DNA of 64,000 bases from Diadema setosum (lineage: Eukaryota > Echinodermata > Echinoidea > Diadematoida > Diadematidae). The stretch spans positions 22,352,809 to 22,416,808 of the forward strand of contig NC_092698.1 of NCBI RefSeq assembly GCF_964275005.1, written 5' to 3'. This document shows positions 21,318-21,436 of this stretch, piece by piece. The notes under the pieces were generated by a model, which was not told where the DNA came from, made no database searches, and was given only the letters and a program-made list of their open reading frames with translations. The position numbers were made by a program, and so were the translations under genes. Positions within the stretch are counted from its first letter, which is position 1, and every line of letters starts with the position of its first letter.

Positions 21318-21436
21318 TTAACAGGGTGGTGCGTTGGCTTTATAGTCTTCAAACGCGTCTTGCCAGGCAACCATGTCTACTGTCTTCCATTGTTCATAGT
21401 CTTCCCGCCACTGCTGTTCCAATTCCGGCATGTCCA
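21318..21436 (-). CDS. gene A exon 8: WAT-like C-terminal tail and stop
   Basis: 119 nt, ends in TAA. It encodes [20 protein letters not shown] followed by [14 protein letters not shown]. The aromatic spacing W-Y-W...W-F-Y and the terminal Cys parallel the tryptophan amphiphilic tetramerisation peptide of AChE. Acceptor TTATTTCAG. A minus-strand AATAAA lies at 21135-21130, about 180 bases past the stop. Confidence 0.88.

Follow-up and report, generated by a model that had tools for sequence, protein, structure and literature searches.

The C-terminal T-peptide is usually discussed as the element that positions acetylcholinesterase (AChE) and butyrylcholinesterase (BChE) at the synapse or retains them in the plasma. 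In vertebrates this WAT tail is encoded by the last exon, and its aromatic series, whose pattern was compared with 1vzj, is W10, F14, W17, Y20, W24, F28 and Y31. Amplified cholinesterase genes reportedly occur in some animals, and echinoderms are said to be mentioned in this connection by Chatonnet et al. 2017 (J Neurochem 142:73-81). As described in two papers (PMC5943944, PMC8518539), four WAT helices of vertebrate AChE or BChE wrap one antiparallel proline-rich peptide.

The locus described here lies in a stretch of 64,000 nucleotides of the Diadema setosum genome (NC_092698.1, positions 22,352,809 to 22,416,808 of the forward strand), referred to below as the window. It contains an intact eight-exon esterase gene, designated gene A (window 33593 to 21318, minus strand), that was rebuilt by hand from GT-AG sites (Table 1). 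The coding sequence of 1818 nt, corresponding to 605 codons and a stop, was open throughout, all seven introns had GT-AG boundaries, and the start phases of exons 1-8 were 0,0,1,1,0,0,2,1. The protein matched the carboxylesterase family PF00135 (Pfam-A) with 450.7 bits over residues 26-555, covering the whole domain, and the nucleophile serine, the acid, the histidine and the oxyanion Gly-Gly were all present. Exon 8, read as the minus-strand translation, was 119 nt long, had the acceptor TTTATTTCAG and was joined to exon 7 in phase 1.

Table 1. Exons of the two esterase genes in the window and positions of the two canonical cholinesterase-like genes of the same genome
Feature	Position	Strand	Basis
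Gene A exon 1: start codon, short omega loop without Trp86; leader judged hydrophobic by eye	33231..33593	-	
Gene A exon 2: oxyanion-hole strand	29529..29688	-	
Gene A exon 3	28181..28258	-	
Gene A exon 4: nucleophile elbow FGQSAGG	26689..26807	-	
Gene A exon 5: Cys loop AGC..VTC	24815..24985	-	
Gene A exon 6: triad acid Asp (TKDDGS) and His (GVAHGED)	22867..23492	-	
Gene A exon 7: C-terminal core, end in phase 1	22092..22273	-	
Gene A exon 8: WAT/T-peptide and stop codon	21318..21436	-	Translation, Pfam, alignments, helix model
Gene B exon 1: start codon, short omega loop; leader judged hydrophobic by eye	48139..48516	-	
Gene B exon 2	46875..47034	-	
Gene B exon 3	45823..45900	-	
Gene B exon 4: nucleophile elbow FGQSAGG	44961..45079	-	
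Gene B exon 5	42688..42858	-	
Gene B exon 6: acid and His	41552..42183	-	
Gene B exon 7	40426..40607	-	
Gene B exon 8: second WAT/T-peptide exon	39359..39480	-	
Canonical cholinesterase-like gene 1	C22:6164473-6167647 (6.16 Mb)		
Canonical cholinesterase-like gene 2	C22:22169731-22176450 (22.17 Mb)		

A preliminary description had read exon 8 as an AChE-type tetramerisation tail from the spacing of its aromatic residues. The W-Y-W and W-F-Y triplets and the terminal cysteine that it reported were exact (W, +4 Y, +3 W, +8 W, +4 F, +3 Y), giving the pattern W-x3-Y-x2-W-x7-W-x3-F-x2-Y with Cys as the final residue. Six of the seven WAT aromatics were present, with Tyr in place of F14, and alignments to the human T-peptide identified the one that had been noted as missing as Tyr20. 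Relative to the human T-peptide the tail does have the one-residue insertion noted between its second and third Trp, but this is not a peculiarity of gene A, because both canonical cholinesterase-like genes of the same genome also have a spacing of 8; decay of the gene A tail was ruled out as its origin on the same grounds. Relative to the vertebrate AChE-T and BChE WAT domains (PF08674; 1vzj), the gene A tail is alike in its C-terminal helix, in the W, F/Y, W, W, F, Y positions and in the near-terminal Cys, and differs in the replacement of Tyr20, in the W17-W24 spacing of 8 instead of 7 and in sitting on an esterase without a choline site.

Alignment of the tail to the WAT domain was above background, with a local alignment score of 67 to the human peptide and a maximum of 57 in 20,000 shuffles. 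The AChE tetramerisation domain PF08674 scored 27.0 bits on the isolated exon 8 (E=3.8e-6; cut-off 25) and, in the whole gene A protein, 20.6 bits at residues 571-601 (E=3.7e-4), under the same cut-off. The best match of the tail in a phmmer search of all PDB sequences was the human AChE T-peptide 1vzj (E=0.0064), and a two-sequence AlphaFold2 model gave a single helix over residues 2-34 with a mean pLDDT of 88. Genes A and B and the canonical gene at 6.16 Mb all encode the tail in a separate C-terminal exon, which is joined in phase 1 so that eight residues precede the first Trp; the vertebrate tail is likewise a last exon with the same junction. Judged by sequence, position, separate exon and splice phase, exon 8 of gene A is assigned as a true WAT/T-peptide, homologous to that of AChE and BChE.

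The extra residue alters the aromatic stripe of the helix. At 3.6 residues per turn the aromatic vector of the gene A tail was 0.79, a value matched by 81 of 10,000 shuffles, compared with 0.85 for spacing 7, while at 3.5 residues per turn the values were 0.57 for the spacing of 8 in gene A and 0.91 for spacing 7. Spacing 8 breaks the heptad stripe in this tail. Since the stripe is less regular than in the spacing-7 tails, the helix may contain a bulge or differ in its winding.

The sole further esterase found in the window with gene A as a tblastn query was gene B (48516-39359, minus strand), a tandem paralogue that was also intact, with eight exons in the same phases, 613 codons and a WAT tail of its own that matched PF08674 with 26.3 bits (cut-off 25). 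The two genes were 65% identical in the core and 71% identical in the tail. Silent sites were saturated in tail and core alike (15.5 of the 19.0 silent sites of the tail were changed, pS 0.816), and pN was lower in the tail (0.153) than in the core (0.215). The two tails agreed in every aromatic, in the Cys and in having a spacing of 8, so these features are older than the A/B duplication and were kept by selection; the tail is under purifying selection between A and B.

The introns and downstream sequence of both genes were also scanned for other possible C-terminal exons, of either the GPI (H) or the read-through type. The candidates were short, had weak acceptors and were rejected; none were alike between the two genes by eye, and the longest stretch common to the two introns was at most 15 nt by blastn.

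The core of gene A had been called non-classical, and this was upheld when its residues were compared by eye in an alignment with AChE, whose residue numbers (Trp86, Glu202, Tyr337 and so on) are used here. Twelve residues of the omega loop, including Trp86, were missing relative to AChE, and the omega loops of genes A and B contained no Trp except one next to the first Cys. Both genes had the elbow FGQSAG and the acid segment KDDGS, in contrast to FGESAG, which includes Glu202, and the triad Glu of the cholinesterases; Glu202 is thus replaced by Gln and the triad Glu by Asp. The residues of gene A at Tyr124, Tyr337, Phe338, Tyr341 and Tyr449 were not aromatic, His and Ile lay opposite Phe295 and Phe297, and Trp286 fell in a gap. 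Most aromatics of the peripheral site and acyl pocket were replaced, and equivalents of Trp117, Trp236 and Trp439 were kept. The closest solved relatives of gene A, and of a paralogue on contig C11, were AChE and BChE. Gene A is probably a carboxylesterase of the cholinesterase superfamily that lacks the cholinesterase substrate site.

Two canonical cholinesterase-like genes of the same genome, both on contig C22, provide a close comparison. The gene at 6.16 Mb had an AChE-like core (467 bits to AChE, for a core joined from search pieces), with the Trp86 segment EMWNPN and the elbow FGESSG, and its tail, NIDEAERQWKEEFYQWSTKYMVDWKAEFNHY.., matched that of gene A in splice position and phase (phase 1), with eight residues ahead of the first Trp. 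The gene at 22.17 Mb had EMWNSP, FGESAG and a tail. Tyr20 was kept in the 6.16 Mb gene and was His in the 22.17 Mb gene. Gene A resembles these genes in the splice position of the tail exon and in the spacing of 8, and differs in its core, where the canonical genes keep Trp86 (EMWN) together with FGES. Moreover, the region from near the N-terminus to FA(R/K)(S/T)G was one long open frame in the canonical genes and was divided among six exons in gene A, so that one of the two lines lost introns or the other acquired them.

The distribution of the tail was determined by searches of the 912.7 Mb assembly (102 contigs). One of these contigs, C102 (15,708 bases), carries COX1. In a 450-base piece of it, one AAA codon occupies the position of the second Asn of RMNNMSFW in bovine COX1, the other AAA being uninformative, and both ATA codons coincide with conserved Ile. 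On these few sites the contig agrees with the echinoderm/flatworm mitochondrial code, which together with the vertebrate-like protein suggests an echinoderm, probably a sea urchin. In a genome-wide search with PF08674, the one place that passed E<=0.001 was a canonical tail on C22 (44.3 bits); the gene A tail did not pass. With the gene A tail itself as the query, 30 places were scored, all of them open frames; a C11-family tail as the query gave 32 places, six of which were new, and the canonical tail added nothing convincing. The motif W-x3-[YF]-x2-W-x6/7-W-x3-F-x2-Y followed by Cys was present in 34 of the 36 places read from the two productive searches, comprising all 30 from the first and four of the six new ones from the second. 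The other two, C14:20144089 and C7:10325967, lacked the motif and were dropped as chance matches, and the count also leaves out C3:46561014, which was found with the canonical-tail query at E=4 and had one stop. The 34 tail exons, at least 32 of which lie outside the two cholinesterase-like genes, are a lower bound, because genes that no longer have the motif escape a search of this kind.

The W, F/Y, W, W, F, Y and Cys residues were kept in all 34 tails, although these retentions are not independent because many of the tails are tandem duplicates (C11 10.74-11.00 Mb; C14 38.58-38.67 Mb). In 33 tails the first Trp codon was preceded at exactly 26 nt by an AG, the phase-1 acceptor that places the junction eight residues before Trp, and the remaining one had a phase-compatible AG at 41 nt. 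PF08674 was matched at E<0.01 by 26 of the 29 distinct tails among the first 30, and no other family was matched. An aromatic residue or His occurred in the Tyr20 stretch in three of the first 30 tails, including those of both canonical genes.

The spacing between the second and third Trp was 7, as in the human peptide, in 26 of the 34 tails and 8 in the other eight. Two tail registers thus coexist within one genome.

Trp86 was absent from all 21 non-canonical omega loops that were read and could be paired with a tail, and present in both canonical ones. The 21 loops were those of genes A and B, a further eight, and eleven paired with a downstream tail; the count leaves out L065 and L072, which are first-exon pieces without an omega match, and L073, which has no paired tail, and the gene C11c had no readable omega loop. 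Each of the Ser, acid and His motifs was found in 12 of the 12 cores that could be read, of which one is canonical. Three supported groups emerged in a tree of 12 cores, 1) genes A and B, 2) a pair at C14 37.79-37.81 Mb and 3) a C11/C14 38.6 Mb group, with the canonical gene on a long branch and the branching order among the three groups unsupported. Core identity between the groups was 38-46%. Of the 66 pairs that 12 genes form, 47 resembled each other more closely in the tail than in the core and 19 did not; C20a, for which only exons 7 and 8 were found, was left out of both the tree and the pair counts.

Esterases without the tail served as a control. Genome-wide, PF00135 was found at 87 places, with 84 of 360 candidates scored. 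For 37 of these places one of the 34 tails lay on the same strand no more than 25 kb downstream, and for the other 50 none did; tails too diverged for the queries, or more than 25 kb away, would escape this pairing. The 50 places without a tail indicate that the tail marks a subset of the genes and does not belong to the fold as such. A cluster of carboxylesterase exons at C16:15192526-15480616 comprised 19 scored PF00135 places, all without a WAT tail. These carboxylesterases (15.19-15.48 Mb) share PF00135 exons with gene A, but no WAT tail was found downstream of them. Two first exons of the cluster also lacked Trp86, so the loss of Trp86 is not confined to tailed genes.

A proline-rich partner was sought in the genome and in the window. 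An exon-wise genome search with PF16101 for a PRiMA homologue gave 84 matches, none of them over the cut-off of 38.6 bits; the best, at 29.9 bits, had internal stops, and an E. coli control gave matches too. Within the window the search for a proline-rich anchor found short proline runs, most of which met a stop within 25 residues, and none was convincing by eye.

It appears likely that gene A carries a genuine WAT helix on a probably secreted esterase that lacks the cholinesterase site, and that this enzyme tetramerises on a proline-rich peptide. With a leader, recognised by eye, esterase motifs, an amphipathic helix and a terminal Cys, a secreted disulfide-linked tetramer would be expected. 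In the secretory pathway, four amphipathic tail helices would pack their aromatic stripes around one proline-rich partner peptide, the terminal Cys residues would form disulfides, and the end product would be a tetramer of active esterase that recognises choline esters poorly. The family of gene A presumably goes back to duplication of a cholinesterase-like ancestor that already had the tail, the tail exon being kept as the core changed. For gene A, secretion, the tetramer, the proline-rich partner, catalytic activity, the substrate and the order of descent are inferred.

Other explanations of the tail were considered. One is that it is a dimerisation or self-association helix, which would form a disulfide dimer through its Cys or a weak association of four tails and would need no proline-rich partner. 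The retention of Cys in all 34 tails, the failure of any PRiMA homologue to exceed the cut-off, the absence of Tyr20 from gene A and the departure of spacing 8 from the heptad stripe would all be consistent with such a helix. However, Cys alone does not need the W, F/Y, W, W, F, Y series that all 34 tails have, the aromatics were kept even across groups with cores only 38-46% identical, and spacing 8 is shared by the tails of both canonical cholinesterase-like genes, so that self-association is considered unlikely. The tail might instead be a functionless relic, inherited by the divergent genes from a cholinesterase ancestor, given that the loss of the choline site from the core has removed its original setting. 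This is highly improbable, as amino-acid change between A and B is low and every aromatic is kept against a background of saturated silent sites, and as the 34 tails are all open and use the same splice site or, in one case, a phase-compatible one.

Gene A might also be a working cholinesterase with an unusual gorge, in which case the tail would have its usual synaptic job. AChE and BChE are its nearest solved relatives and the triad motifs are present, yet the Trp86 segment is deleted, Glu202 is changed to Gln and the triad Glu to Asp, Tyr337, Phe338, Tyr341, Phe295 and Phe297 are replaced, Trp286 is in a gap, and the genome has two other cholinesterase-like genes with Trp86; the explanation is accordingly thought improbable. 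Finally, an amphipathic helix could resemble a WAT domain by chance or convergence, the exon being short, its whole-protein Pfam score under the cut-off and its tail missed by the genome-wide family search at E<=0.001. This is regarded as refuted: none of 20,000 shuffles reached the observed score, the place, exon and phase are the same as in a canonical gene of the same genome, and 26 of 29 tails matched PF08674 and no other family. The preferred reading remains that of a genuine WAT helix on an esterase without a cholinesterase site.

The tail itself is ordinary, and what is unusual is its uncoupling from the choline site and the scale on which this has occurred. Most copies of the tail lie outside the cholinesterase-like genes, and each such core that was read lacks Trp86, which means that the tail and the cholinesterase site are separable; in genes A and B selection has maintained the tail since that separation. 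The presence of the tail on at least twenty enzymes without the site that grips acetylcholine suggests a wider use of the WAT tail than nerve signalling, and raises the question of the proline-rich partners and substrates of a non-cholinesterase tetramer. The natural variants, with spacing 7 or 8 and with or without Tyr20, are available for testing what assembly of the tail needs. More speculatively, and on balance doubtfully, the WAT tail and a proline-rich partner could constitute a general quaternary-assembly module freed from cholinesterase activity, in which interchangeable tails on dozens of active, chemically diverse secreted esterases would dock on common proline-rich partners and give mixed tetramers and hence a combinatorial set of extracellular enzymes. 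On this reading the two registers (spacing 7 in 26 tails, spacing 8 in eight) may sort which subunits assemble together. No WAT-tailed non-cholinesterase and no PF08674 in echinoderms was found among the matches listed for the open-licence literature, which is weak evidence of absence. The present genes have in common with the amplified animal cholinesterases reportedly treated by Chatonnet et al. 2017 an increase in the copy number of the superfamily.

Two other features were observed in the window. The segments 12300-13990 and 30950-31890 were, by eye, two copies of an apparent dispersed element that has ends of the TATGCCTCCGCC type and contains tandem units of GGAC/CCGT as well as numerous (T)GACCTTTGACC repeats. 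On the minus strand, at 56256-63175, there were open frames resembling a multi-pass membrane transporter, with Pfam matches that were all below the cut-off; by eye we take these frames to be sodium:solute symporter-like.
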